DNA of 22,571 nucleotides from a virus, in the IMG/VR virus record IMGVR_UViG_3300009285_004574, positions 1 to 22,571 of that record; one strand, written 5' to 3'. Of the stretch, positions 1,176 through 19,910 are shown piece by piece. The position numbers and the translations under genes are program-made. The notes beneath the pieces were generated by a model. It was not told the origin of the DNA. It was given only the letters and a program-made list of their open reading frames with translations, and ran no database searches. The first letter of the stretch is position 1, and each line of letters opens with the position of its first letter.

Positions 1176-3083
1176 TCATGGCTTGGTTGCGACGAACTCA
1201 TCCAGGGGGAGCACGCGCATCCCGTTGGCGCTTGCCGCGTCGAGTATCGCCTGCATCAGTGCCAGGGTCGTCTCTGTCGCTACTGCACTCCCCGCCAGGT
1301 GGAATTGGATGGAGTGCAGGCAGTTCCCACCCCCGGCCGCCAGCAACGCGGCGATGCACGCCGCCGCCTTGGCCGCGTCGTCTGCCCCGGCATAGCTGTT
1401 GTTGTAGACCGACTGCGAGTTGCGCACGGCGTTCGCCACCAGCGGCATGTTGTTGACGGTTCCAGCCGACGACCCCCGCACCTCTGCCCACCGTGCGGTC
1501 AGCTCAGACACCAACGACGCACCCGCGAAGTCCAGCGTCTCTCCGCCCGGCGCAACGAACACGCACGACGGGCGCAGGCCGTGCAGATACATCGCGTCCC
1601 GGCCCCGGTCCATGGCAGCGATCGCTGCTGCTCGGGTCGCATAGCCACTCAGCGTGGTGTTACTCCACAGGTGGCAGCTCAGGTGATGTCCGCACCGCTG
1701 CAGGAGCCGCCACACCCGCCATGGCGGCGACGCGTAGCCGCCCGCGAACCCGACGATGATCGAGAAGTAGCCCCGAACCGCACGCGACGCGAACAGTTGG
1801 CGGTGCATGGAGGCGTTCTGGATGTAGCCGTCATCGAAGCCTGCGGCCAGGTGGATGCCGCCGCTGTGCGTGCGCGAGCGCTGCCCGAGGCCCCGCGCGA
1901 ACGCCGTGAACGTGCCTGTCGGCTGGCTCGCATCCGCCAGCGTCAAACGCACCGTGTGCGCCCCATAGCCGATGGCCGACCCGGGGATGCCCACGCGGTA
2001 GGTGCCTGCAACGACCTCCTTCACGCGCCATGCATTGAAGGTCTGCAGCACCTGCGTGTTGCTCCCGCCCGCGTAGGCCACAGTCGGGATGGCGAGCCAC
2101 CCTGGACACTCCGCCAAGTAGGCGGTGCCGGACACGCCCGGCGTGGTCTGCTCGTGACGCACCACCTGAGATGCAGGCAGGAGGTCGCACGGCGGCGCCG
2201 TAGCCTCCACCAGACACCCGTCATACGTGCCGGTGGCCGCGTCCAGCTCAGCGGCGATGAGGTCGGCTACGCCCTGAGTGGCATCGGTTCGCGTGCCTGC
2301 CAGCGCGGCGAGAGTGATGTCGGTCCAAGCGCCGGCACCCTGGCGGATCTCCACCGTCGCGATCGCCTGCGCTGCGTTCCCAGCGACGTCGATGACACCA
2401 GGGACTCCCTGGTGGTAGACCCCCCTCCCCGCCGCGTAGTGGACCTCCTCGGCATCGGTCAGACGCGCGTCGTACACCTCTACCGAGTGGATGTGGAGCT
2501 TGCCGACGAGCGCGTTGTCACATTCCATCATCCCTACGCGCAGCTTCCGCACGCTCAGGGTGTCGGAGTCCATCGCCACGCGGCTGCCTGTGCGCTGCTC
2601 GGTGCTGCCCGCCAAGCCACAGTATCCATCATTAGCACCAGGCGCGGTCGCGGCCTTCCAGAGCAGCAGCAGCTCCCGGATGCCGGGGTTGCCCTCCAAC
2701 ATCCTGCCACAGGTCACCAGCACACTGCTGCCGTCGTCCAAATAGGCACGAAACCGCAGGTTATTGTTCAGGATGGTATGCCAGCGGATCGACGCCACTT
2801 CAGCGTCGGCGGCAGACAGCAGCGTTAGCAGGCTGTGAGCGGCGGTGGGGATCCAGTCGACGTCCGTCTCCACGATCAGTCGCACCAACAGCGCCGTCTG
2901 GTTGGCCCCGAGGTCCTTCTCCACGTAGACGGTGTTCGTGCCCCCGTCTACGCCGTCGCCCTCAACCGTCAGGTGGGGCGCGGGCCAGCCCGCCAGGCTC
3001 CCAACGGCGACAGTGCCGTTCGTCTGGACCACGGAGCTCCAATCACCGGTGCCGGTGAGTGCTGCGCGAAAGAGCAGCGCCAT
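1176..3083 (-). CDS. LamG-like plus polysaccharide deacetylase (NodB-type) virion protein
   Basis: A 635-residue two-part protein. Residues about 1-225 resemble a concanavalin/LamG domain, ending with the typical VYDARLTDAEE followed by YAAGRG. A linker with a second beta-rich region spans about 230-400. From about 405 it is a NodB-fold polysaccharide deacetylase: FDDG at 416-419 (catalytic and metal-binding Asp), the metal-site segment SCHLWSN at 469-475, FVAPGG at 509-514, and a C-terminal SIQFH ending at His595. In the usual HxxxH metal motif the second His is Asn475 here. Members of the family remove acetyl groups from peptidoglycan or capsular sugars. The gene overlaps the preceding stop by one base (TGATG) and precedes the tail tube gene, so the protein is probably a virion component acting on the host surface. 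Activity despite the Asn change is uncertain. Confidence 0.75.
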   Translation of the reverse strand: MALLFRAALTGTGDWSSVVQTNGTVAVGSLAGWPAPHLTVEGDGVDGGTNTVYVEKDLGANQTALLVRLIVETDVDWIPTAAHSLLTLLSAADAEVASIRWHTILNNNLRFRAYLDDGSSVLVTCGRMLEGNPGIRELLLLWKAATAPGANDGYCGLAGSTEQRTGSRVAMDSDTLSVRKLRVGMMECDNALVGKLHIHSVEVYDARLTDAEEVHYAAGRGVYHQGVPGVIDVAGNAAQAIATVEIRQGAGAWTDITLAALAGTRTDATQGVADLIAAELDAATGTYDGCLVEATAPPCDLLPASQVVRHEQTTPGVSGTAYLAECPGWLAIPTVAYAGGSNTQVLQTFNAWRVKEVVAGTYRVGIPGSAIGYGAHTVRLTLADASQPTGTFTAFARGLGQRSRTHSGGIHLAAGFDDGYIQNASMHRQLFASRAVRGYFSIIVGFAGGYASPPWRVWRLLQRCGHHLSCHLWSNTTLSGYATRAAAIAAMDRGRDAMYLHGLRPSCVFVAPGGETLDFAGASLVSELTARWAEVRGSSAGTVNNMPLVANAVRNSQSVYNNSYAGADDAAKAAACIAALLAAGGGNCLHSIQFHLAGSAVATETTLALMQAILDAASANGMRVLPLDEFVATKP

Positions 3084-3523
3084 CAGGCCACCTCGTCAAC
3101 CGAGACGTTCGCCCCAGCGGTCGAGAACAGCTTGAGAGTGCTGGCTTGAGAGGAGCGGAACAACAGGCCGCCCACCGGCAGCTTGGCACTGGTGGCACTC
3201 GCGTTGCCTGTCGGGTTGTAGCGCACGTCATCGGTCGCCAGCTCCGGGCGGACCGATAGCATCAGCGTTCCGGCCTCCAGGGCGCTCCCCTTCAGGGTTG
3301 CCAGCGTCTTGCCGTTGAGGGTATTGTCCACGGCGGCTCGCCAGGACGCCTGGTAAGCCGGAGCGCGCTCCTGGACCGGCGCCGGATTGGCGGGCCCCAC
3401 GTCCGTACTGCCTACACGCAGGTTGGCCTCGCGCTCGGGCACGTAAGGATCCTCACTCGTGCCTGCACCAGTAGCCGCGAACGTCTTCGTCGCCCCAGTC
3501 GCATCCTTCGCCTGAAACCCCAT
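3083..3523 (-). CDS. Small virion structural protein, function unknown
   Basis: 146 residues. The N terminus (MGFQAKDATGATKTFAATG, then GTSEDPYVPE) resembles a segment shared by small virion proteins encoded near head-tail genes of many phages. The C-terminal half is beta-rich (LPVGGLLFRSS, STLKLFSTAGANVSVDE) and may form a small sandwich domain. GAGGG lies a few bases upstream of the ATG. Its stop overlaps the start of the LamG/deacetylase gene by one base, so the two are probably translated together, and the products may assemble together on the particle. I do not recognise a defined family. Confidence 0.5.
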   Translation of the reverse strand: MGFQAKDATGATKTFAATGAGTSEDPYVPEREANLRVGSTDVGPANPAPVQERAPAYQASWRAAVDNTLNGKTLATLKGSALEAGTLMLSVRPELATDDVRYNPTGNASATSAKLPVGGLLFRSSQASTLKLFSTAGANVSVDEVA

Positions 3524-6823: not shown

Positions 6824-7765
6824 CTACGGGAGGAGGATCGCGAAGGGGAAGCGGCTGCCCTCCGTGGGCTGCATCTGGGTGACGGGGTTCGGCACCTGCC
6901 AACCGAGGCGGAACACGGCTCGCATCGCCACCATGTCCTGCTGAGCCAGGTTGTAGACGATGTTGCCCGCGCCGTCCTGGATGACCGCCTGGTCGAGGAT
7001 CTTGTAGCTGATGTCCTGCCGCACGGCGTACACCAGCTTCTTCCAGTTGCCGGCGATCTGCAGCGCTGCCGTCGAGTCGATGGAGTCGTTCTCCGCGAAG
7101 GCCACCGGCGTGCCGTCCAGCAGGTACTGCGTGGGCACCTGGGGATTCACCATGAAGATCGGCTGCCCGTTCGCATCGCGCAGGCCGCGCAGCTTCGCCT
7201 TCACCGTCATGTGCGCCAGGCTGCCACTCACGTAGTAGCCGTCGCTCTCCACCTTTGCGAAGACACCGCCCTCGCCCAAGAGAGCGTCGAACAGGTCGGC
7301 GCAGGCGGCCAGCGACACCGTGTTCGCTGCCGCAGTCGCCTTCGTCACCAGGTCGTCGGGCCAGGAGGATGGGGCATTCGTGCCGTGGATGACCGCCGCG
7401 TCGAACGCCTTCCCGAAGGCCACCTCGACCAGCGGCCGGATCTCCCCCCAGATGTCGTAGTCGCTGTCGTCCAGCACCGACTCCGGGATGGGCACGATGA
7501 CCGCCAGCTCCTCGGCGTCGATGTACTTGTTCACCCACTCGACATTCGTCGTCTGCTTCGTGCCCGTATCCCCGTTCACGAAGTAGGCGACAGGCAAGCT
7601 GGAGAGCACCGGCATGCGCCGCTGCGCCCGTGCCATGTTCTGCAGCTTGGAGGCCATCGGCATGATCACGCTGTTGGCCACCGAGTTCTTGATGATCTCC
7701 CGGGTCACGTCCTCCGGTATCAGGGCGCCGGCGTCTGTGCGGTCGATCACGCTCGTATAAGGCAT
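6824..7765 (-). CDS. Major capsid protein (HK97 fold)
   Basis: 313 residues. The sequence follows the family pattern: an N-terminal arm (MPYTSVIDRTDAGALIPEDV), an early helix with hydrophobic face (REIIKNSVANSVIMPMASK), the E-loop region PVLSSLPVAYFVNGD, then WVNKYIDAEELAVIVPIPESVLDDSDYDIWGEI, which is a strongly recognisable spine-helix region of this family, and the P/A-domain part ending in IVYNLAQQDMVAMRAVFRLGW. It forms the icosahedral shell. GGAAGG lies upstream of the ATG (7763-7765). No prohead protease gene is seen upstream, but a scaffold gene is, so assembly probably resembles that of SPP1-like phages with a separate scaffold. Stem-loops flank the gene on both sides, and the gene is likely strongly expressed. 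Confidence 0.9.
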   Translation of the reverse strand: MPYTSVIDRTDAGALIPEDVTREIIKNSVANSVIMPMASKLQNMARAQRRMPVLSSLPVAYFVNGDTGTKQTTNVEWVNKYIDAEELAVIVPIPESVLDDSDYDIWGEIRPLVEVAFGKAFDAAVIHGTNAPSSWPDDLVTKATAAANTVSLAACADLFDALLGEGGVFAKVESDGYYVSGSLAHMTVKAKLRGLRDANGQPIFMVNPQVPTQYLLDGTPVAFAENDSIDSTAALQIAGNWKKLVYAVRQDISYKILDQAVIQDGAGNIVYNLAQQDMVAMRAVFRLGWQVPNPVTQMQPTEGSRFPFAILLP

Positions 7766-7789
7766 TGCCTTCTACCTTCCTTTCAGGTC

Positions 7790-7839
7790 GCCGGCCCTTG
7801 GTGCCGGCAGCCGGCATACGGTAGGCGGCTATCGCCGCC
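7790..7839 (-). other. GC-rich inverted repeats between scaffold and major capsid genes
   Basis: Three copies of the palindrome GCCGGC lie at 7790-7795, 7803-7808 and 7810-7815, any two able to form a short stem. A separate GGCGGC/GCCGCC stem (7824-7829 and 7834-7839, 4-base loop) covers the stop codon of the scaffold gene. There is no T-run. They resemble the other stem-loops that separate the abundant structural genes here. Confidence 0.5.
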
Positions 7840-8461
7840 CTGCCGCCCGCCGGATCGCATCATTCATACTTGGGCCGGCAGCCGCGTTGTTGCCGGCCCC
7901 GCCATCCGCGCCGCCCGTCCTTGGCCGGCGCGCCTTCTCGCGTTCCTTCGCGTCCTCGGCCTCCGCCTTGGCGTCAGCCTCGATCTCCTCGGCCGTAGTC
8001 CCCTGCAGGCGACCGGCCTGGCGCTCGGTTAACCCGTACTTCGAGCCCATGGCGGTGCGCACCGCAGAGAGCTCTGCCTCGCGCGCCTTCGCCTCCGCCT
8101 TCTCGCGCGCCGCCTTCTCCTGCTCGTAGAGCTTCTGATACTCGCCGGCAGCCTTGGCCTTCTCGTCGTCGGCTTTGCGTTGGGCGCGCTTCTGCTCCTC
8201 GGCCAGGCGGTCACGGACGACCCGATCCAGGTCCGCCTGGCTGAACTTCTTGTCGTCCACGGTCGGCTTCTCGTCGCCGCCGGTCTGCTGCCCGGCTCCG
8301 GCTCCAGCCTTCTCCTCGCCCGGCTTCTGGGTGCCGGTGTCCCCGCCCGCGCCCTGGTCGTCTGCGCTTTTGCCCGGCTCGCCCCCGGTCTGCGACCCTG
8401 CGTCGGTTGCCCCGAGGAGCGCCGGCAGTGCCAGCGCACCCAGGGCCGTCAACATGCTCAT
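7829..8461 (-). CDS. Capsid scaffolding protein
   Basis: 210 residues. The start is ATG 8459-8461, with GGAGG 8 bases upstream; a 12-codon upstream extension is unsupported. The first 17 residues (MSMLTALGALALPALLG) are hydrophobic, residues about 20-65 are a Gly/Pro/Lys-rich acidic linker, and the centre is a long charged coiled-coil (SQADLDRVVRDRLAEEQKRA onward). The C terminus is basic and disordered (REKARRPRTGG ... RRAAGRR). This layout, directly before the major capsid gene, is that of the phage scaffolds which line the procapsid and leave before packaging. The hydrophobic N terminus is not typical of scaffolds; I see no signal peptide cleavage pattern that would argue for export. Confidence 0.83.
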   Translation of the reverse strand: MSMLTALGALALPALLGATDAGSQTGGEPGKSADDQGAGGDTGTQKPGEEKAGAGAGQQTGGDEKPTVDDKKFSQADLDRVVRDRLAEEQKRAQRKADDEKAKAAGEYQKLYEQEKAAREKAEAKAREAELSAVRTAMGSKYGLTERQAGRLQGTTAEEIEADAKAEAEDAKEREKARRPRTGGADGGAGNNAAAGPSMNDAIRRAAGRR

Positions 8462-8487
8462 GTTTAATCCCTCCTCGTACGTGCGAA

Positions 8488-8509
8488 GGGCCGGCACTCA
8501 GGCCGGCCC
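8488..8509 (-). other. GC-rich stem-loop before the scaffold gene
   Basis: A perfect 8-bp stem, GGGCCGGC at 8488-8495 with GCCGGCCC at 8502-8509, and a 6-base loop. In the minus-strand mRNA it lies 26 bases before the scaffold start, ahead of its ribosome site. No T-run. The sequence CGAAGGGCCGGC here also occurs at the junction hairpin near 14728. Confidence 0.6.
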
Positions 8510-8536
8510 GGTCCTGCTCCTCTCTCGCGGCGTGGC

Positions 8537-8854
8537 CTACAGCCGCCGGCTCCCCGCCCGCATGCGGATGTTGGCGTTCACCTGCGCGTTCTGGGCCCCG
8601 CCGTTGACGGCCACCCACGCCTGCGCCACCTCGGTCTCATCCTTGCCCAGGACGACCTCGCCCTTGTCACCCCAGGACCAGGTCCGCTCCTTGAACACCG
8701 CGGACTTGTCCTCCCGGTAGATGACCACGTCCTCGTAGACCCAGGTGGAGATGTAGAAGTAGGTGTCCCTCGGCAGGTTCTTCGGCTTCAGCAGCTCGCG
8801 TAGAGCTTCCGAGACGGCTGCGTCCTGCTGCGCCAGCGTCAATCCTGTGTTCAT
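8537..8854 (-). CDS. Small protein between MuF-like and scaffold genes, unknown
   Basis: 105 residues (MNTGLTLAQQDAAVSEALRE...). It has an N-terminal helix, then a beta-rich core with many aromatic residues (RDTYFYISTWVYEDVVIYREDKSAV, RTWSWGDKGEVVLG), and ends in a helix with a basic tail. The ATG overlaps the stop of the MuF-like gene as ATGA, so translation is coupled. Small genes at this place, between minor head protein and scaffold, are common in phages. It is soluble and has no Cys. No family recognised. Confidence 0.5.
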   Translation of the reverse strand: MNTGLTLAQQDAAVSEALRELLKPKNLPRDTYFYISTWVYEDVVIYREDKSAVFKERTWSWGDKGEVVLGKDETEVAQAWVAVNGGAQNAQVNANIRMRAGSRRL

Positions 8855-11295
8855 GCCCCGCTCCTCGCCCCGAAGATGCCGCGCCCCTGCGCCTTCAGCC
8901 GCTCACCCGTCACCTGCCCGATGGCCTGTGCGTAGCTCACCCGCCCGCCGCTGCGCAGCACCCGCCGGGTCGCTTCCAGGCGCCGGCTCTCGATGCCGGC
9001 CTCCCGCCAGCGCGGACCGTGCGTCGCCCCCTGACCCTTCAGCCGCCGATACTCGGGCCAGTTGCGGAAGCCCAGGCGCGCCGCCCGCATCCGCTCCCTG
9101 CCCTGCGGCACGTCATCTCGCATCCGGGCGTAGAGCTCCCGGTCCGTCATCGCCAGGAACTCAGGCGTGGCCTTCTGGCCCTCGCCCGCCGCCGCTACAA
9201 TCCACGGAGCCACGGAATGCCGACAATTTGGGTGGAATGGTGGCCCCGGCCGGTTCAGCCGCGGATACCCCAACGCATCGCCTGCCTCATCCACGCTGAA
9301 GACGAGGCCCTCGTAACCCTGGCAGTTGTGGGTTACGAAGCCTTCAGCGACGAAGCTCTCGTCGTCTTCCACGGCCAGGTTGAAGACAGGTAGGCGCTGC
9401 GCCACTCGGCGAGTAACCCGGACTGAGTGAAACACATACTCGGCGTCAGGCGCCGGTCCACCCCATAAAACCGCTCCACGATCTTGTGGCACGAACCGCA
9501 CAGCGTGATCATGTTGCCCAGGCAGTTCGCATGCTCCGGCACAACGAACGCCTTCACAGGAACGATGTGGTGAACCGAGGTCCTGCCTGTCTTCCCGCAC
9601 ACCCGGCAGACACGCTTGTCGCGCATCCTGGCCATCTTCGCCACCCAATACCAGTTGTCGCCGTAACCGTGCGCAGCCTTCCCGCGCCCAGTCATCCAGT
9701 GATCCGCACCCCGTTGCCTGACGGACTGGGCCCTGCGCTCTGTTGGTGTCTTCCTCTTGGAGAACGGATGCCGCTTCTGGGCATGCAGCTCTCTCGTCAC
9801 CTCGTGCGCCTTCCACGTAGACGGGCGCACCTCGATCCTGTATCTGTGAAGCCAGTCTAGCACCGTAGAGGCATTGACACCCGCGACTGGCGCGATTTCC
9901 TCCGAACTCAGCCGCCTCGTAACGTAGAGTTCGTAGAGCTGATCTCGGGTCAGGCAGAACTTCACCTGGCGCGCCGGTTGGCCCTCCTGGCTCCTGTAGC
10001 GGCACTTCAGGGAACAGAACTTCCGCCTTCCCTTCGCCACCTGGCTTGCCAGGAACTCGAATTCCTTGCCGCAGACGGAGCATTTCACCGTCGCCCGTGG
10101 CAGCTTCCGGCACCGAATTGGGATACCATACCTGTGCAGCAGTCTCGCAACGGTCGATGCGTTGATCCCGGTGATAGCTGCGATCTCGGTCGTCGCCTTG
10201 CCCTGATGCGCGTAGAGGTCCTGGAGGGCCTCCTTCTCGATGCACTGACGTGACATATTCCACCTCCTGAAGTGGGTCCTGGTGTGGTGTAGGGAAGGCG
10301 CCCCAGGAAAGGCGCCTTGTTGGGCTGCAGACCCTATCCCCACACATCAGAACTTCGTCACCCGTCGAGAGTTCTCCTGCCGCCCTCCACCCTCCTGGGG
10401 TAAGCACCGGGTGCTCTGGCGTCACGGTGAGTGATTGACCCAATGCCTCTATGGTCACCAGATCACCAGAATGCTCGTGGGCCATTGCGCGGACGACCGA
10501 CCGCCACCGACCCTTGTGTGTTCGGACCAACTCGCCTGCCTGCACTGCCTCAACCGGCTTGTATCCGGTAGATGTCAGCACCCGGGAACCCCTAACAAGG
10601 CACAGGAAGCAGAGCGTCTGGTGAGTGCTGACCTGCACCAGGTGGATGCCGGCCTGCTCGTAGCGCTGCAGCGCGCCTTCGTTCAGCGCCGCCAGCGTGC
10701 CGGTGCGCGCTGACATCTCCCCGTAGGCGTGCAGGCTGTGAACCGAGCCGTCTGCGTAGACCACCCCGCAGGCCCGGTCGATCCCCTCGACGAGCGCCTG
10801 CAGCGGCTGCCGGTCCAGCAGTCGGGCGATGCCCTGCTCTCGGATGGCGCGGCCCACGGCCAGCGGGCTGTCACCCAGACCCAGGCCGCGCGCCAGCTCG
10901 CCACCGGCCAGCGTTCGCAGGTAGTCTCGGCTCTGGCGCAGGATGGCTCCCACGAAGCGGCTGCGCTGCCCCGCCACCTCTCGCGAGAGCGCCTGCAGCG
11001 GCTCCCTCGGCAGCGTGGCGAACGCGCGGTCTACCCCAGCGGTCTGAGGGAGCGCCGCGATCCGCTCGATGGCCGTGTCTCCGCCCTGCCCGTAGGCCAG
11101 CGCGAGCTGCCCGTTCTCCCAGTTCCCGACGTAGGTGTTCAGCCGCGCAAGCTCGGCCTCTACCTGCCGCAGGAGGAGCTGGCTGCGCCGCTGGTCGAAG
11201 CTGCCGAGGGTCGCGCTGAGCAGAGCCTGCCGGATGCGTATCCCAGAGGCCAGGTAGACGCGGCGCAGCGCCTCAATCTGTGGGTCCAGCAGCAC
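8851..11295 (-). CDS. MuF-like minor head protein precursor interrupted by an intein
   Basis: An 814-residue open frame starting with GTG 11293-11295 (GGAG 8 bases upstream). Residues 1-231 and 658-814 form a MuF-type minor capsid protein. The N part is helical, and joining the halves restores STHQTLCFL plus CQGYEGLVF, then PPFHPNCRHSVAPW, the classical CxxC ... HPNCRH motif of Mu gpF and SPP1 gp7 relatives. The spliced product would have 388 residues, normal for the family. Residues 232-657 are an intein, described separately. The protein binds the portal and may be carried into the head or cell. The gene lies directly after portal, as usual. An HNH gene in another frame overlaps codons 347-655. 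Without splicing, the CxxC motif would be broken, so function probably depends on the intein. Confidence 0.85.
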   Translation of the reverse strand: MLLDPQIEALRRVYLASGIRIRQALLSATLGSFDQRRSQLLLRQVEAELARLNTYVGNWENGQLALAYGQGGDTAIERIAALPQTAGVDRAFATLPREPLQALSREVAGQRSRFVGAILRQSRDYLRTLAGGELARGLGLGDSPLAVGRAIREQGIARLLDRQPLQALVEGIDRACGVVYADGSVHSLHAYGEMSARTGTLAALNEGALQRYEQAGIHLVQVSTHQTLCFLCLVRGSRVLTSTGYKPVEAVQAGELVRTHKGRWRSVVRAMAHEHSGDLVTIEALGQSLTVTPEHPVLTPGGWRAAGELSTGDEVLMCGDRVCSPTRRLSWGAFPTPHQDPLQEVEYVTSVHREGGPPGPLRASGQGDDRDRSYHRDQRIDRCETAAQVWYPNSVPEAATGDGEMLRLRQGIRVPGKPGGEGKAEVLFPEVPLQEPGGPTGAPGEVLPDPRSALRTLRYEAAEFGGNRASRGCQCLYGARLASQIQDRGAPVYVEGARGDERAACPEAASVLQEEDTNRAQGPVRQATGCGSLDDWAREGCARLRRQLVLGGEDGQDARQACLPGVREDRQDLGSPHRSCEGVRCAGACELPGQHDHAVRFVPQDRGAVLWGGPAPDAEYVFHSVRVTRRVAQRLPVFNLAVEDDESFVAEGFVTHNCQGYEGLVFSVDEAGDALGYPRLNRPGPPFHPNCRHSVAPWIVAAAGEGQKATPEFLAMTDRELYARMRDDVPQGRERMRAARLGFRNWPEYRRLKGQGATHGPRWREAGIESRRLEATRRVLRSGGRVSYAQAIGQVTGERLKAQGRGIFGARSGA
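9333..10256 (-). CDS. HNH endonuclease (homing-type) nested out of frame in the intein
   Basis: 307 residues, read in a frame one base off the intein frame. The ATG 10254-10256 has a perfect AGGAGG 6 bases upstream. Two related helix-turn-helix units (about 11-49, AHQGKATTEIAAITGINAS..., and about 104-143, LSSEEIAPVAGVNAS...) flank a Cys4 zinc motif (C59, C62, C81, C85). The HNH nuclease is at 217-257: CRVC, then VHHIVP with H229/H230, N248, and CGSCH at 253-257. HNH endonucleases of this kind cut near their insertion site and spread the element. The stop TAA (9333-9335) lies inside the last intein codons, so the gene fits exactly inside the intein. Codons such as AGG, GTT and CCA are more common than in neighbouring genes, suggesting transfer. 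Confidence 0.88.
   Translation of the reverse strand: MSRQCIEKEALQDLYAHQGKATTEIAAITGINASTVARLLHRYGIPIRCRKLPRATVKCSVCGKEFEFLASQVAKGRRKFCSLKCRYRSQEGQPARQVKFCLTRDQLYELYVTRRLSSEEIAPVAGVNASTVLDWLHRYRIEVRPSTWKAHEVTRELHAQKRHPFSKRKTPTERRAQSVRQRGADHWMTGRGKAAHGYGDNWYWVAKMARMRDKRVCRVCGKTGRTSVHHIVPVKAFVVPEHANCLGNMITLCGSCHKIVERFYGVDRRLTPSMCFTQSGLLAEWRSAYLSSTWPWKTTRASSLKAS
10263..10268 (-). promoter_or_regulatory. Ribosome binding site of the nested HNH gene
   Basis: AGGAGG on the minus strand, 6 bases before ATG 10254-10256. A perfect site placed inside the intein coding sequence supports independent translation of the endonuclease from the same mRNA. Confidence 0.8.
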
Positions 11296-11298
11296 GCG

Positions 11299-12639
11299 CT
11301 ACACTCCACCCCCGAACGGGTTCCCCAGCGCCGGCTGCGCCAGGTCCTGCTCCGCCTGCGCTTCGGCGAGCACGCTCTCCAGCTCCTCGCCCTCAAGGCC
11401 AACATCGGCTGCGAACACGTAACGCTTTGGCAGTCCGGCGTTCCGGTGCAGGCCGGCGATCTCCGCGCGCTCCCGCAGGCTGGCCGGCGCCGGGTCCTCC
11501 CACTTGCACGTCACCCGCGCCTGCGGGCGCCCGTCCATCAGCAGCGCCAGCCGGAGCACCGTCTCCCACGCCGACCCGAAGGTCCCCTGCCTGTCCTGAC
11601 ATTTCTTGACGATCGGAACGTCCAGCGCCTTCAGGGCCTCGCCCGAGGGCGCGCTGTTGTGCAGGAAGATGTAATGCGGCGGGATGCCTGCCTGCCGGGC
11701 GATCTTCTGCTCCCAGTCCTGCTGCACGGCCAGGAGCTGGGTCAGATCCGCCGCGGGGAACTGCCCGAAGCCCACGTCCGGGCTTGCCACGGTCCACACG
11801 CGATCCACCGCCGGGATGAAGGTCGGCTTTGGCTTGCCCGTGTCGGGATCGATGTCCACCTCTAAGCCGGTCGCGTAGCGCTGCGGCAGGGAGACGTACT
11901 CCATGCCCACGAGCGTGTCGCAGATGGCCTTGTTGTAACCGTCCTGCAGCGGGATGATGTTGCGCAGCTCGGATTTCCCCTGCCCGTCGATGTCCGGGTC
12001 ACAGGGGAAGTGGACGATGGGCACCTCGCCGTAGGGGTTCGGCTCGCCCGGGTCCTCCTCGAAGACACGGAACGTGTCCGCCTTCTCGGGGATGCCGCCG
12101 CCGCTCGGCTTCTCTGCCACGTACTTGGTGATCTCCTCGGGGGTGTAGACGTTCAGCCTCACCTTGCCGTCCGGCAGCGCCCACCACTTCGCGGCCCACA
12201 ACAGCCGGTCCGGATCCTCCTCATCATGGGCCACCGTCATCCGGCAGGCGAACTGCGGATAGATGCGTGGAGCCTCCGCCCCCTCAGGCCTCCACACGAT
12301 GCAGTAGGCGTCACCTGTGCGAAGCGCCTCCCTGTGGACACGCCCGGCGCGGTCGTCCATCCGGTTCAGCTTCCAGATCTCTGCGGCCCGGTCCGCGTCC
12401 TGCTCCGCGCCCTTGCTGGCCTGGAACCCCTTCACCTGCAGCCGGTCCGAGATGGTATCGACCACGACGGCACTGATGTTGCAGGCGAAGGCGGCGAGCA
12501 CGCTCCCGAACGCCTGCCGGAACTTGTCCGTGGCGAAGGCGAGGCGTTGCTTGCCGCGGTAGTACTCGGCATAACGCCGGTAGTCATCCTGCCTGGCCCG
12601 AAGCTGCTCCAGCGCCCGGGTCACGATGGGATCTGCCAT
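11299..12639 (-). CDS. Portal protein (SPP1 gp6-like)
   Basis: 446 residues. The pattern is that of SPP1-type portals: an N-terminal helical start (LEQLRARQDDYRRYAEYYRGKQ), NISAVVVDTISDRLQVKGF, GDAYCIVW, the segment PIVHFPCDPDIDGQGKSELRNIIPLQDGYNKA with the conserved G-x-S-E-L...I.PLQD-x-N-K, and then the long helix and C-terminal acidic part. Twelve copies form the DNA entry channel at one capsid vertex and bind the terminase during packaging. The ATG overlaps the large terminase stop as TGATG, and the MuF-like gene follows after 3 bases, so terminase, portal and minor head protein are in one translationally coupled block. Confident from motif and order. Confidence 0.9.
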   Translation of the reverse strand: MADPIVTRALEQLRARQDDYRRYAEYYRGKQRLAFATDKFRQAFGSVLAAFACNISAVVVDTISDRLQVKGFQASKGAEQDADRAAEIWKLNRMDDRAGRVHREALRTGDAYCIVWRPEGAEAPRIYPQFACRMTVAHDEEDPDRLLWAAKWWALPDGKVRLNVYTPEEITKYVAEKPSGGGIPEKADTFRVFEEDPGEPNPYGEVPIVHFPCDPDIDGQGKSELRNIIPLQDGYNKAICDTLVGMEYVSLPQRYATGLEVDIDPDTGKPKPTFIPAVDRVWTVASPDVGFGQFPAADLTQLLAVQQDWEQKIARQAGIPPHYIFLHNSAPSGEALKALDVPIVKKCQDRQGTFGSAWETVLRLALLMDGRPQARVTCKWEDPAPASLRERAEIAGLHRNAGLPKRYVFAADVGLEGEELESVLAEAQAEQDLAQPALGNPFGGGV

Positions 12640-13967
12640 CAGAACGTCACCAACTTCCGGCTCGGCTCGGCGGGCACCATGAGATCAGTCAGCGCCCATA
12701 CCATCGCGTCGAGACGATCCGGGCTGTCCTCGCCCGGCTCCCACTGGCAGAGCTGATCCTCAAGCTCAGGGAATGCTCCCACATGATGCACCAGCCCTTG
12801 CTCTGATAATGCGCTGATCGGCTCGGCGCGCGTGTGCTTCCCGCGCGACGCATGAACCTTCTTGTAAGAGAGCTTCTGGCCGCCTTCGACGCTGCGAATG
12901 GTGTGCTCCACCATATCGCCGCCCTGATTGGCTTCTCCGACGATCCGGTCTGCTTTGTAGGTGTTGTAGGCGGCCACCACCTGCGCCGCCCACCTGGCGG
13001 GAGATGCGTGGAGGCTGCGATCGTCCAATACGTAGCCGTGGATGATGCCGCCCACCTTGGCGATGCCGGCCACAACAATCCCCGTGTCCGCCGAACCCTC
13101 TGCGCTCGTCGTCGCGGGGTCGACCGCCACGACGATGCGCTGCAGCTCGGGCGCCTTGCTCACACGGTCGCGGTCGATCCACTCCCGCTTCCACAGCGCC
13201 CCGGGGTTGTCGTCCAGGAGTTCGGCATTCAGCTCCTGCCGGCCCAGGCGGGTGCCCTCGAACCGCCGGATCACCCGGTCGATGAACGCCGGGGCAAGGT
13301 TCGCGAAGTTCTCGTACGTAGACCCGCGGGTGACGTGAGTGTTCGGGTCCTTGACCAGCTCCCGGATGTGGGGGACCGGCTTTGGCGTCGTGGTGATGAC
13401 GCAGCGCGGGTCCTTGCCCAGGCGAAGCCCGAGCAGGAACATATCCCACGCCTCGGGATACCGCCACGATGCGAGCTCGTCGCACCAGCCCCAGTGGTGC
13501 TGCGGGCCGCGCAGGGCCGCTGGCTCGTCGCCGCTGAACGTCGTGGCCTGAGAACCGTTCGGCCAGGTGAGGCGCCGCTTGCTCGGCTCATACCGGGGCC
13601 GAAACGACGGCGGCGAGATGGCCATGATCCCGCTCTCACCCTCCACCATCACGTCGCGCACGTCCGCAGCGGTGCGAGCTACCAACGCCCCGCGGCTCTT
13701 CGGGTGCCGGCGCGCCTGCTCGATCGCCCACTCGGCGCCGGTCCTGCTCTTGCCGAACCCGCGGCCGGCCAGCAGGAGCCAGTAGCGCCACTCGCCGGGA
13801 GGGGGGAGCTGCGCGTCGCGCGCCCAGAAGGGCCAGTGGCAGTTCAGCCGCTCCTTATCCTGGGGCGTCAGGGCCGCCAGGAATGCGTCCCTCGTCTCCC
13901 TCGGCTGGCTCAGCAGCCACCCCGCAGATACGCGCGGCAAGGTCTGCAAGCCTCGCATCGAAGTCAT
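12639..13967 (-). CDS. terL: Terminase large subunit
   Basis: 442 residues if started at ATG 13965-13967 (13958 is also possible; neither has a clear ribosome site, and coupling to the small subunit gene is likely). Residues about 46-80 carry WARDAQLPPPGEWRYWLLLAG and then the Walker A motif GRGFGKS (68-74). Walker B is WGWCDE (159-164, D163, E164). ITTTPKP at 191-197 is the coupling motif. The C-terminal nuclease has AVDPATT (Asp283), a middle acidic site near VGEANQGGD, and DAMVWALTDL near the end. The enzyme pumps DNA into the prohead and cuts the concatemer. It overlaps the small subunit gene by about 113 bases in a different frame, a longer overlap than elsewhere in this window. Confidence 0.9.
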   Translation of the reverse strand: MTSMRGLQTLPRVSAGWLLSQPRETRDAFLAALTPQDKERLNCHWPFWARDAQLPPPGEWRYWLLLAGRGFGKSRTGAEWAIEQARRHPKSRGALVARTAADVRDVMVEGESGIMAISPPSFRPRYEPSKRRLTWPNGSQATTFSGDEPAALRGPQHHWGWCDELASWRYPEAWDMFLLGLRLGKDPRCVITTTPKPVPHIRELVKDPNTHVTRGSTYENFANLAPAFIDRVIRRFEGTRLGRQELNAELLDDNPGALWKREWIDRDRVSKAPELQRIVVAVDPATTSAEGSADTGIVVAGIAKVGGIIHGYVLDDRSLHASPARWAAQVVAAYNTYKADRIVGEANQGGDMVEHTIRSVEGGQKLSYKKVHASRGKHTRAEPISALSEQGLVHHVGAFPELEDQLCQWEPGEDSPDRLDAMVWALTDLMVPAEPSRKLVTF

Positions 13968-14463
13968 CTGCCGTCCGCTCGTCGTGCAGGTCCACGTCGT
14001 GCCGCTCCGCCCACTGCCCCAGTTCCTTCGCCGCCTGCTGCTCGTGGGCCCGCAGCTCACTCAGAAGGCCGTCGTCAACCTTGTACTCGTCAACGACCTG
14101 GAAGTCATCCCCCCGCCCGATGCCTTTCACCTGATGCACCAGGAGGCCGGACTGGCCGCCGGGGATGCCCTGCATCTGCGGGTCGGCTGCCCGCTCCTCG
14201 ATCACCTGCTGCATGCGGCGCCACCGGTCGTGTAGGGCGGCCACCCGCCGGCCCTTCTGGGCAATGGCGTATCGCTCGACGCGTGCGGCGAACTCGGCAA
14301 TCAGCTCATCGACCCGCCGCTGGAACTCAGGTTGCTTGCGCCAGTTGTAGAGGGTGCGGACGCAGATGCCGACCTGCTTCGCAATCTCCTCGTCGCTCAA
14401 CCTGTCCTCGGCCGCGAGCTTTGCAGCCTCCTCGGCTCTATATGTCATGCGAAAGGCGGGCAT
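13855..14463 (-). CDS. terS: Terminase small subunit
   Basis: 202 residues. The N-terminal part MTYRAEEAAKLAAEDRLSDEEIAKQVGICVRTLYNWRK is a helix-turn-helix typical of small terminase DNA-binding domains. A long helical oligomerisation region follows (EFQRRVDELIAEFAARVERYAIAQKGRRVAALHDRW), and an acidic C terminus that would bind the large subunit. The start is set at ATG 14461-14463; the in-frame ATG at 14446-14448 is also possible, and neither has a strong ribosome site. It recognises the packaging start on phage DNA. Its end overlaps the start of the large subunit gene. It is the first gene of the late block, following the tRNA region. Confidence 0.82.
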   Translation of the reverse strand: MPAFRMTYRAEEAAKLAAEDRLSDEEIAKQVGICVRTLYNWRKQPEFQRRVDELIAEFAARVERYAIAQKGRRVAALHDRWRRMQQVIEERAADPQMQGIPGGQSGLLVHQVKGIGRGDDFQVVDEYKVDDGLLSELRAHEQQAAKELGQWAERHDVDLHDERTADDFDARLADLAARICGVAAEPAEGDEGRIPGGPDAPG

Positions 14464-17591: not shown

Positions 17592-18936
17592 CGCGCTCCT
17601 CCGCGTCGATGAATTTGGCCTGCGCCGGCAGGAAGGTGAGCGGCACCCACGCCGGCCCACCGTGCCGCGCCTTGCCGACGATCAGTTTGCACGGGTCCTT
17701 GTCCGGCACCGCCTCACCCTTCGGGCGGTAGTACGAGGGCCGGAACAGCAGGCCGACGAACGCGGCGTTCTCCTCAATGCGCCCCGACTGGCGCACGTCA
17801 GCCATGTTCGGACGCTTATCGTCACGGCGCTCCACATCGCGGGAGAGCTGTGTCACCGCCACCACCGGCAGGTTCAGGTTGTCGGCCACCGAAAGGAGGC
17901 CGTCCACGATTGACGAGACCTTGTGCGTCTCGTTCTCGTGCGGCCCGTCGCACGCCATGCGCTGGATGTAGTCCACGACCACCATGTCGAGGCCAGTCTC
18001 CCGCAGGGCCCGGCGCGCCTTCGACATCACGTAGCGCGGCGTAATCCCCCGGGTGTAGTCAATCCACACCTCGCCGCCGCCCTCGACGGCTCGCATCAGT
18101 GTGTTGGTGGCTTCGGCCAGGTCTGCCCAATGGCGGTCCTCCAGCCTGCCTGTCCGCAGGCGCCAGCTCTCAACGCCGGCTACCCCCTGATAGATGCGGT
18201 TTTCGAGCTGTTCCGCGTTCATCTCCAGGCTGAAGGCCAGCACCTTCCGGCCTTGCTGTGCGGCGCTGAGAGCGCAAGTCATCCACAGCGCGGTTTTCCC
18301 CATACCTGGCCTCCCGCCGATGACGTGGAGGTCTCCTCTCTGCCACCCCTGCGTCACGTCATCCAGCGCCCGCAGGCCGGACGGCACGCCACTGGTCCCC
18401 CGCGGCTGCTCCTTCAGACGCTCATATCGCGACAGCGCCTGCTCTGCCATCCCCGCCAGGCCGATGACGCCCACCGTCTCCCGGCGCCGCTCGATTGCGT
18501 CAATAGCGGCCGCCACACGGGCCACCACGGCACCCGCGTCATCCACGTCACCGAAGCACTCCTCGACTGCATCCGTCGCCACGCCGATCAGCCGGCGCAG
18601 GACCGCCTTCTGCTCCACGATGCGGGCGTAGAACTGCACGTGCGCTGCGGTCGGTATCTGGTCAAGCAAGGCCGCCAGGTATGGGCGGCCGCCAGCCTGC
18701 TCAAGCTGTCCGCGGGTTTCCAGTTCGTTGCCGAGCGTAGTGAGGTCCACCGGTTCGTTCCGGTCCGAGAGGTCCGCCGCCGCCCGGAAGATGAGCTTGT
18801 GCGCCTCCCGGTAGAAGTCATCCGAGCGCAGCACCTCGCACGCCTTCTCGATGGCACTGCCCTCGAGCAGCATGGCCCCGAGTGTGGCCTGCTCGGCCTC
18901 CAACGACTGCGGTGGAACGTGCGCGGCCCGCAGCAT
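17575..18936 (-). CDS. dnaB: Replicative DNA helicase, DnaB type
   Basis: 453 residues, normal for DnaB. The N-terminal domain opens PPQSLEAEQATLGAML with the standard PxxxEAExxxLGxxL, and continues FYREAHKLIFRA, QIPTAAHVQFYARIV. A linker helix region leads to the RecA-type ATPase: Walker A GGRPGMGKT (207-215), SLEMNAEQL, Walker B MVVVDYIQ (318-325), and the DNA-binding/arginine-finger region TQLSRDVERRDDKRPNMADV, then RQSGRIEENA. It unwinds DNA at the phage fork as a hexamer. The start overlaps the initiator stop as TGATG, so initiator and helicase are made together, and the initiator very likely loads it. Complete and with no odd residues. Confidence 0.94.
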   Translation of the reverse strand: MLRAAHVPPQSLEAEQATLGAMLLEGSAIEKACEVLRSDDFYREAHKLIFRAAADLSDRNEPVDLTTLGNELETRGQLEQAGGRPYLAALLDQIPTAAHVQFYARIVEQKAVLRRLIGVATDAVEECFGDVDDAGAVVARVAAAIDAIERRRETVGVIGLAGMAEQALSRYERLKEQPRGTSGVPSGLRALDDVTQGWQRGDLHVIGGRPGMGKTALWMTCALSAAQQGRKVLAFSLEMNAEQLENRIYQGVAGVESWRLRTGRLEDRHWADLAEATNTLMRAVEGGGEVWIDYTRGITPRYVMSKARRALRETGLDMVVVDYIQRMACDGPHENETHKVSSIVDGLLSVADNLNLPVVAVTQLSRDVERRDDKRPNMADVRQSGRIEENAAFVGLLFRPSYYRPKGEAVPDKDPCKLIVGKARHGGPAWVPLTFLPAQAKFIDAEERDDGDE

Positions 18937-19910
18937 CAGCCTGCCCCTCCCGGTATGCCCCGCTCCGCCCGGATCTTGCGATACATGGCGCGGTTTTCCC
19001 GCTCTTCCTGCTCCAGGTCGATCAGGCCGGGAACCCTTGCGGGTTCGGCGTTGCGCCTGGCCTCCTCCATCCTGCCGCGAACCGCCTCCACGAAGTACCC
19101 CCGTGGGTTATCAAAGCGCTTGCCGGCATTCGCCATCGCCGTTGCGGCGGCCAGCATGACGTCGGCCACCTCCGTGCCGGCCTTCTCGTGTTGCTTGGCC
19201 ACCTGGCCAATTGTCACGAACCGTTGCCGCGCGGATAGGGATGACCACTCGGGCAGTTCGCTGAGCGTTTGATCCAGCAGCCGCCGCTGCTCCGGCGTCA
19301 GGATGCCGATGTAGGGTTCGGTGCGCTGTGTCTCATGCATCCGTGGGGGGGTAGGGGGGGACGTCTCCGACTCCGACTCCGACTCCGACTCCGACTCCGA
19401 CTCCGACTCCGACTCCGACTCCGTACAAGTATGCACGCCATTGCTAACAGTTGCAGGCGCTTGCTCAGCATTGCACAGGCTTGCATCCGTTTGCGCGGGC
19501 TTGCATGCGTTTGCATCAGCTTGCTTACCCTTCCATCTCGCGTTGGCCGCATCGCGCCTCACGTCCGAGAGGGTGCGGCCATCCTCGGTGGGGTACTTGC
19601 TCACCTCGGATGTCAAGCTCTGGTGTCGTGTCCACGACACCAGCCGTAGATATGCACGCGCGCCAACCCGGTATCGCGTCACGAGGCCATGCGCCTCCAG
19701 CTCATCTAGAGCGCCTGAAACCTCGGCAGGTGAGATGCTCTCCAGCATGAGCGGGAAGCACAGGGCCCGAACGACGGGGGGGTCTGCCATGTAGCGCCCG
19801 GTGTCATCAGCACTCACCAGCAGGCGCGTGAACAGAAGCTGCGCCACTGGGCTGCAAGCATTCAGGTTCGGCGACGTAATGATGGACGCGCGAAGTATGC
19901 GGTCTGGCAC
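18936..19910 (-). CDS. Phage replication initiator / helicase loader with internal origin
   Basis: 324 residues, starting with GTG 19908-19910, with GGAGG 5 bases upstream. Residues 1-110 have the winged-helix pattern of phage replisome organisers: LLFTRLLVSADDTGRYMADP, SGALDELEAHGLVTRYRV, then YLRLVSWTRHQ. Residues about 127-200 are a low-complexity linker, including a Ser-Glu repeat (about 163-183) and Pro-rich TSPPTPP. The C part (about 205-300), with PEQRRLLDQTLSELPEWSSL and FDNPRGYFVEAVRGRMEEAR, is helical and probably contacts DnaB, whose gene follows with overlap. Like lambda O, the gene seems to carry the origin within its linker-coding DNA (repeats listed separately). The domain call is sound; the loader role is inferred from context. 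Confidence 0.8.
   Translation of the reverse strand: MPDRILRASIITSPNLNACSPVAQLLFTRLLVSADDTGRYMADPPVVRALCFPLMLESISPAEVSGALDELEAHGLVTRYRVGARAYLRLVSWTRHQSLTSEVSKYPTEDGRTLSDVRRDAANARWKGKQADANACKPAQTDASLCNAEQAPATVSNGVHTCTESESESESESESESESESETSPPTPPRMHETQRTEPYIGILTPEQRRLLDQTLSELPEWSSLSARQRFVTIGQVAKQHEKAGTEVADVMLAAATAMANAGKRFDNPRGYFVEAVRGRMEEARRNAEPARVPGLIDLEQEERENRAMYRKIRAERGIPGGAG
19345..19360 (+). repeat. Two G7 runs (possible G-quadruplex) at the candidate origin
   Basis: On the plus strand, seven G (19345-19351), TA, seven G (19354-19360). Four GGG tracts with short loops can be drawn, enough for a G-quadruplex. It codes for Pro-rich residues of the initiator on the minus strand. It lies next to the hexanucleotide repeat and the 10-bp motif array. 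Confidence 0.6.
19365..19423 (-). repeat. Hexanucleotide tandem repeat coding (Ser-Glu)n
   Basis: Nine perfect copies of CTCCGA on the plus strand (19365-19418) plus a five-base partial copy. On the minus strand it codes for alternating Ser and Glu in the initiator linker. Copies are identical at every base, so the repeat is recent or kept uniform; copy number is expected to vary by slippage in steps of two residues without changing frame. Confidence 0.9.
19431..19534 (-). repeat. 10-bp-phased GCAA motif array, candidate replication origin
   Basis: TTGC on the plus strand (GCAA on the minus) begins at 19441, 19451, 19461, 19471, 19481, 19491, 19501, 19511 and 19521: nine copies at exactly 10-bp spacing, with weaker ATGC and TTCC units at 19431 and 19531. 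On the minus strand most alternate copies are GCAAG, giving a 20-bp super-period over part of the array. Ten is not a multiple of three, so the protein sequence here is not repeated and the pattern must be kept at the DNA level. One helical turn spacing puts all sites on one face of DNA, as for initiator binding. Confidence 0.8.

Follow-up and report, generated by a model that had tools for sequence, protein, structure and literature searches.

The window analysed here, the whole 22,571-nucleotide stretch of IMG/VR virus record IMGVR_UViG_3300009285_004574 (positions 1 to 22,571), contains a MuF-like minor capsid gene interrupted by an intein. Very probably the intein is mobile, and its homing endonuclease, of the HNH type, is an independent gene overprinted on the linker DNA in the same orientation, in a reading frame shifted by one base. 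The usual picture of an intein is a splicing domain with an endonuclease fused in frame, or else a degenerate mini-intein. An intein that resembles a mini-intein with a useless linker can, it appears, have the enzyme that probably mobilizes it encoded in a different frame or on the other strand, and mobile inteins of this nested design seem to have been overlooked.

The MuF-like gene (8851–11295, on the minus strand like all features of the locus described below) is a single continuous open reading frame (ORF) of 814 codons with a GTG start, and its product matches Pfam Phage_min_cap2 (4.8e-9) and PHROG 4611, minor head protein. An N-extein (residues 1–231; 10603–11295) ending in THQTLCFL is followed by an intein of 426 codons (Cys232 to Asn657; 9325–10602) and by a C-extein (8854–9324) that begins with C658-QGYEG, where Cys658 is also the second Cys in the C-x-x-C motif of MuF. 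The splicing residues are all present: Cys232 as Cys1 of the intein, TPEH in block B, His656-Asn657, and Cys658 as the +1 nucleophile. The intein matches Pfam Intein_splicing (9.5e-10), Hint_2, and NCBIfam TIGR01443 intein_Cterm (1.9e-7). AlphaFold (AF2), run with a 14-sequence alignment, gave a predicted local distance difference test score (pLDDT) of about 96 for the N-terminal splicing half, IntN (intein residues 1–90; 10333–10602), and for the C-terminal half, IntC (residues 386–426, ending V-T-H-N; 9325–9447), and of about 27 for residues 91–385 (9448–10332). The folded part resembles the splicing domains of Mtu RecA (3ifj, E = 1.7e-6), gp41-1, and MchDnaB-1 in Foldseek comparisons (E 1.7e-6 to 1.6e-5). 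With the two Hint halves confidently folded and residues 91–385 predicted to be disordered, the MuF frame thus appears to encode a complete splicing domain whose halves are joined by a disordered linker of 295 residues. No family match to the linker was found in Pfam, NCBIfam, and PHROG profile searches, and family searches with the 814-residue frame returned no endonuclease. The host gene is not divided into two ORFs, as it would be for a split intein, and a group I or group II intron at 8851–11295 was rejected for lack of any Rfam match at E ≤ 1. A preliminary description of this DNA had placed an intein with all its splicing residues at 9325–10602, and coordinates, motifs, and Pfam and NCBIfam matches all agree with it; its further statement that the intein frame stays open across the overlap while coding no recognizable domain accords with the missing family matches and the low pLDDT. 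To judge from its motifs and its placement in an essential gene, the MuF intein would splice itself out of the 814-residue precursor to leave a product of 388 residues.

Within the intein, in the frame +1 to MuF, lies a gene for an HNH endonuclease of 307 residues (9333–10256), recognized as an ORF and by Pfam and PHROG matches. Its ATG is preceded at a distance of 6 nucleotides (nt) by a Shine-Dalgarno sequence, AGGAGG (10263–10268), and its TAA falls 8 nt short of the intein end, in agreement with the earlier reading of a gene one base off with its own AGGAGG, an ATG at 10256, and a stop in the last intein codons. The protein matches PHROG 8446, HNH endonuclease (1.2e-32), and combines a helix-turn-helix (HTH; residues 14–43; 10128–10217; Pfam HTH_23, 4.5e-9), a zinc-finger-like Cys pair, and an HNH nuclease domain (residues 217–259; 9480–9608; Pfam HNH, 1.9e-7) that lies wholly inside linker-coding DNA; both the HNH motif and zinc-binding Cys pairs are present. 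In its AF2 model, pLDDT is 67–87 over residues 201–260 and below 50 for residues 265–307. Predicted folding of the two products is complementary: the DNA of the HNH core also encodes the disordered linker, and that of the low-confidence HNH tail (265–307, of which residues 266–307 correspond to 9336–9461) also encodes the folded IntC. GC content by codon position is of the coding type in the HNH frame (0.54/0.51/0.79), in contrast to the linker frame (0.79/0.57/0.49).

These features also bear on an alternative in which the endonuclease is itself the mobile unit and in-frame translation of the insert yields a tolerated, unspliced loop, as in the ShiLan-type insertion. Out-of-frame HNH enzymes are indeed held by the ShiLan and Pacc40 insertions in phage methylases (PMC11855218). 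For the MuF gene we consider this highly unlikely, given that its in-frame product has every splicing block and a high-confidence Hint fold, which are reported absent in ShiLan, and that an AGGAGG is present, whereas the ShiLan authors report no ribosome-binding site (RBS).

The openness of the intein frame is non-random, and selection keeps it open. Whether an open frame of about this length is expected by chance had been raised in the preliminary description. After synonymous codon shuffling within the HNH gene, the intein frame contained 9.4 stops on average and was open in none of 20,000 trials; resampling with the contig's own codon usage gave a mean of 5.1 stops and P = 0.005 for an open intein frame. 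A stop in the intein frame requires an HNH codon ending in T ahead of a codon beginning with AA, AG, or GA. Codons ending in T occupy none of the 55 places in the HNH gene where they would make a stop, vs 39 of 174 places elsewhere (Fisher P = 6.9e-6), and in the pooled control of 17 other genes of the window there was no such effect (10.4% vs 10.7%, P = 0.43). Since stop-making T's are lacking in the HNH gene and the control genes show no effect, the intein frame has been held open by selection, and for some time. This weighs on a further alternative, that an HNH gene landed by chance in the linker of a mini-intein in a GC-rich genome, the overlap being recent or the intein now immobile, with no selected relation between intein and endonuclease. 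A GC content of 68% eases long shifted frames, others of which are also present in the window, and under contig codon usage a frame would be open by chance with a probability of 0.5%. Against these points, avoidance of stop-making T's indicates that the overlap has lasted, the HNH domains are intact, and the same +1 register recurs in TerL as well as MuF inteins, including in AT-richer genomes, so that we regard chance landing as unlikely.

The recurrences in TerL comprise three inteins with an HNH gene in the sense +1 frame: L018 (from an uncultivated phage in IMG/VR; loci of the comparison set carry L numbers), which came from a survey of viral contigs, and those of Gordonia phage Clown and Synechococcus phage S-EIVl, which were then obtained by tblastn with the L018 HNH. 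A C-(x)-IDDP(I/V)K motif directly follows all three inteins, in each of which the +1 HNH gene begins past the N-block and stops close to the intein end. Identity among the three is 29–37% for the HNH protein vs 14–20% for the intein frame over the same columns, and stop-making T's are avoided in each (L018, P = 5.8e-9; Clown, P = 0.017; S-EIVl, P = 8e-10). S-EIVl is AT-richer, with a GC content at third codon positions (GC3) of 0.43 in its HNH frame. The Clown intein is missing from sister TerLs that are 81% identical, which indicates a sporadic distribution of the element. Both Clown and S-EIVl are isolates, and since TerL is essential, the protein must work in them; the insert must therefore be removed or tolerated, with splicing as the natural inference. 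A second N-block scan, led by L018, yielded no further sense +1 case.

The TerL inteins also help to judge whether the window holds an ordinary in-frame HNH intein that two compensating indels, real or arising from assembly error, have put out of register. In-frame HNH inteins do exist (motif matches in L014, L035, L038, L060, and L091), and the contig is one assembly. However, the shifted frame would then hold about nine stops and has none, T-avoidance demands a long dual constraint, the HNH gene has its own AGGAGG-ATG and a stop at the intein end, and the register is repeated in three other phages, of which two are isolates. We therefore give this possibility very little credence. Neither of two errors that the preliminary description had allowed for came to light: there is no missed stop, and relatives share the out-of-frame design rather than an HNH that correction of one indel would bring into frame.

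Under the interpretation that the homing endonuclease is overprinted on the linker, ribosomes reading the MuF frame would produce the 814-residue precursor, in which the Hint halves would fold while the 295-residue disordered linker looped out, and canonical Cys1 / His-Asn / Cys+1 splicing would free the 426-residue intein and join the 388-residue MuF. The HTH/zinc-finger/HNH protein of 307 residues would come from the same mRNA, through initiation by other ribosomes at the internal AGGAGG-ATG. In co-infecting phages whose MuF alleles lack the intein, it would cleave the insertion site, and the element would spread when the break was repaired from the copy that bears the intein; the nested enzyme is thus probably what spreads the insert. 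Selection would act on the amino acids of both Hint halves and of the endonuclease, and on the linker mainly to keep out stops, any of which would inactivate a capsid-assembly gene that is essential.

Several points weigh against this interpretation. The AF2 model of the HNH protein is modest (mean pLDDT 59), and predicted RNA folding leaves the nested RBS just partly open. The source is a 22.6 kb virus contig, and translation of both products, splicing, cleavage, and homing are steps that we infer from it. Moreover, searches of viral_contigs with the HNH, MuF, and portal found no close relatives of the window phage (the portal search gave no relative), and the sole match to the window HNH was a distant free-standing HNH (L002). 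Nor did the searches with MuF and the portal yield a relative lacking the intein.

Beyond the sense +1 cases, it is likely that overprinted-endonuclease inteins form a class that is widespread in phages and bacterial genomes and for the most part unannotated, in which the enzyme (HNH, EDxHD/DUF559, or LAGLIDADG-like) lies in the linker in the +1 frame or antisense, in which H-V-Y-N-L doubles as start codon and Shine-Dalgarno sequence in one large antisense subfamily, and from which loss of the open linker frame gives rise to split inteins with free-standing endonucleases (L021, below). An antisense endonuclease gene was found in the MuF intein linker of three Vibrio phages and nine Gordonia phage records. 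In the Vibrio phages the enzyme belongs to DUF559 (7e-13), while the Gordonia enzyme matches PHROG 5046 (3.6e-15) and has weak similarity to I-MsoI. The Vibrio gene is unannotated in phages 1.265.O, 1.266.O, and 1.082.O (L005, 2642–3382, minus strand; L006, 1965–2744; L007, 1956–2735), and sister phages have intein-free MuF alleles (1.198.B, with exteins 91% identical). A LAGLIDADG-like antisense gene with the motif DGEG occurs in Gordonia phages of the Nordenberg/Lennon group (L004, 2642–3352, minus strand) and in the intein of a Microbispora contig (L094, 4097–5053, minus strand). An intein N-block scan of viral contigs and genomes added about 30 antisense cases. These lie in MuF, TerL, and further genes, some of them on contigs of Rhizobium, Micromonospora, Mycolicibacterium, and Ornatilinea; the share of nested cases in the scan is not a population frequency, since it was seeded with nested inteins. 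Most of the antisense-class nucleases tested were confirmed by Pfam; long shifted frames with neither a hidden Markov model nor a motif match (e.g., L047, L081, and L090) were left out of the counts. One antisense-type nuclease has matches in 124 records of the phage collection, Jerseyvirus and Aaphi23 among them; this is a count of nuclease matches rather than of nested loci, and many of the matches are annotated as "head morphogenesis" or "minor capsid protein."

The antisense arrangement is also seen in Jerseyvirus, Aaphi23, and the Gordonia phages Malisha and Vivi2 (L207–L210; in L207, MuF spans 1590–3449, minus strand). In Jerseyvirus, Aaphi23, and Malisha, the DNA for H-V-Y-N-L read backwards provides the nested start codon and Shine-Dalgarno sequence. 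Altogether, 15 loci have the nested start codon opposite the His of H-V-Y-N-L or a near variant, and a Shine-Dalgarno-like sequence opposite N-L. One of the 15, L211 of Acinetobacter phage IME285, has 13 stops in the opposing frame and an endonuclease annotated as a separate gene (455–1348), which is of the EDxHD type and starts opposite H-V-Y-N-F; this locus is perhaps a fractured MuF intein.

Codon choice and conservation in the antisense genes point to selection on the endonuclease. In the nested gene of Vibrio phage 1.265.O, none of the 35 Leu and Ser codons is TTA, CTA, or TCA, vs 44% in neighboring genes (P = 1.6e-9). When relatives were compared in pairs, the endonuclease frame was better conserved than the intein frame in 15 of 15, with changes piling up at position 3 of the endonuclease-frame codons, a pattern showing that the endonuclease is under selection and the linker hardly so. 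A natural control is provided by members of the same nuclease family fused in frame, the EDxHD fusions that made up most of the output of a C-block scan: these have 7–59 stops in the opposite frame, while nested copies nearly always have none. Pooled over 33 nested loci, 190 stops were expected and none observed, a contrast given without a P value since the loci were chosen among intact inteins; the per-gene contrasts and the in-frame control are independent of that choice.

In-frame endonuclease fusions (also L133, L138, and L140) occur in the same set as nested forms, and fractured forms are found there as well. In L021 (2733–4844), a relative of the Vibrio type, the MuF intein frame has five stops, the intein halves lie in separate ORFs, and an intact antisense nuclease lies opposite; it has the look of a naturally split intein that arose by fracture of the nested Vibrio type. 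In L179 (2931–3641) and L202 (2925–3650), IntN is on one ORF (portal/MuF-IntN) and an HNH-IntC-C-extein fusion is on the next, an organization of split inteins that would need trans-splicing. With in-frame, nested, and fractured forms in one set, it is plausible that, as proposed earlier, the nested form is a step linking in-frame inteins and split ones, whichever the direction of change, and L021, L179, and L202 lend this substance. Pacc40-type inteins (L057 and others, in methylase context) were set aside as ordinary, with an in-frame LAGLIDADG-like motif and the end VVKN/C. In the methylase of Escherichia phage BUCT618 (L206, 1600–3462), an insertion matches HNH in another frame in which stops are present, and it may be a decayed ShiLan-like element.

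The MuF gene of the window sits in a head gene cluster (6824–14463, minus strand) of small terminase, TerL, portal, MuF, a small unknown gene, scaffold, and major head protein. Elsewhere in the window, a replication initiation gene with a PHROG match (18936–19910) contains a long Ser/Glu dipeptide run (ESESESES...), a repeat that is open in several frames.

If the nested design is general, many annotated mini-inteins and odd inteins with long linkers may be fully mobile, and annotation pipelines would be overlooking nested enzymes, as in Jerseyvirus, Vibrio, and Gordonia phages, where they are unannotated under head-morphogenesis genes. Selection holding a disordered linker open would become explicable, and the origin of split inteins testable, loss of the open linker frame being a concrete route to fractured genes. 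The overlaps are also long, both same-strand and antisense, with one product predicted to be folded where the other is disordered.

Among known systems, the canonical in-frame endonuclease inteins (LAGLIDADG or HNH, e.g., PI-SceI) share with the MuF intein a Hint domain interrupted at the endonuclease site and the residues Cys1, TxxH, HN, and Cys+1. Unlike in PI-SceI-type inteins, the endonuclease here lies outside the intein polypeptide, with its own RBS and start, and the linker is predicted to be non-globular. Mini-inteins (the Mtu RecA splicing domain, MchDnaB-1, and gp41-1) have the same splicing domain fold, yet the MuF intein differs from them in a 295-residue disordered linker whose DNA codes for another gene. 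Dassa et al. (2009; a paper cited in PMC10448857) reportedly described fractured genes, in which the halves of a split intein flank a free-standing endonuclease gene. As in those, the endonuclease of the MuF intein is a separate gene between two splicing halves; in contrast to them, the MuF host gene is one ORF, splicing would be in cis, and the endonuclease overlaps the intein. The preliminary description had held the nested form to be unknown. A close precedent has, however, been published, and the design recurs well beyond this gene. That precedent, the ShiLan domain, is an out-of-frame HNH in a methylase insertion that its authors describe as neither intein nor intron and as lacking an RBS (Arsenault, Gosselin, Gogarten 2025, PMC11855218). 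Nothing nearer than ShiLan-type work was found in the published literature compared, which did not include a preprint (10.1101/2025.01.02.630785, "Actinobacteriophage Inteins: ... Non-Canonical Architecture") that may cover the Gordonia examples. ShiLan and the Pacc40 gp60 insertion (PMC11855218) resemble the MuF and TerL cases in having an HNH in a frame other than that of the phage host gene, a host frame open throughout, a sporadic distribution, and an HNH start near the 5′ end of the insert with a stop at its 3′ end. They differ in that their authors found neither intein or intron splicing elements nor an RBS, in their non-essential methylase host, and in an HNH in the third frame, whereas the MuF and TerL cases combine a genuine intein, a consensus RBS, and the +1 frame in capsid and packaging genes.
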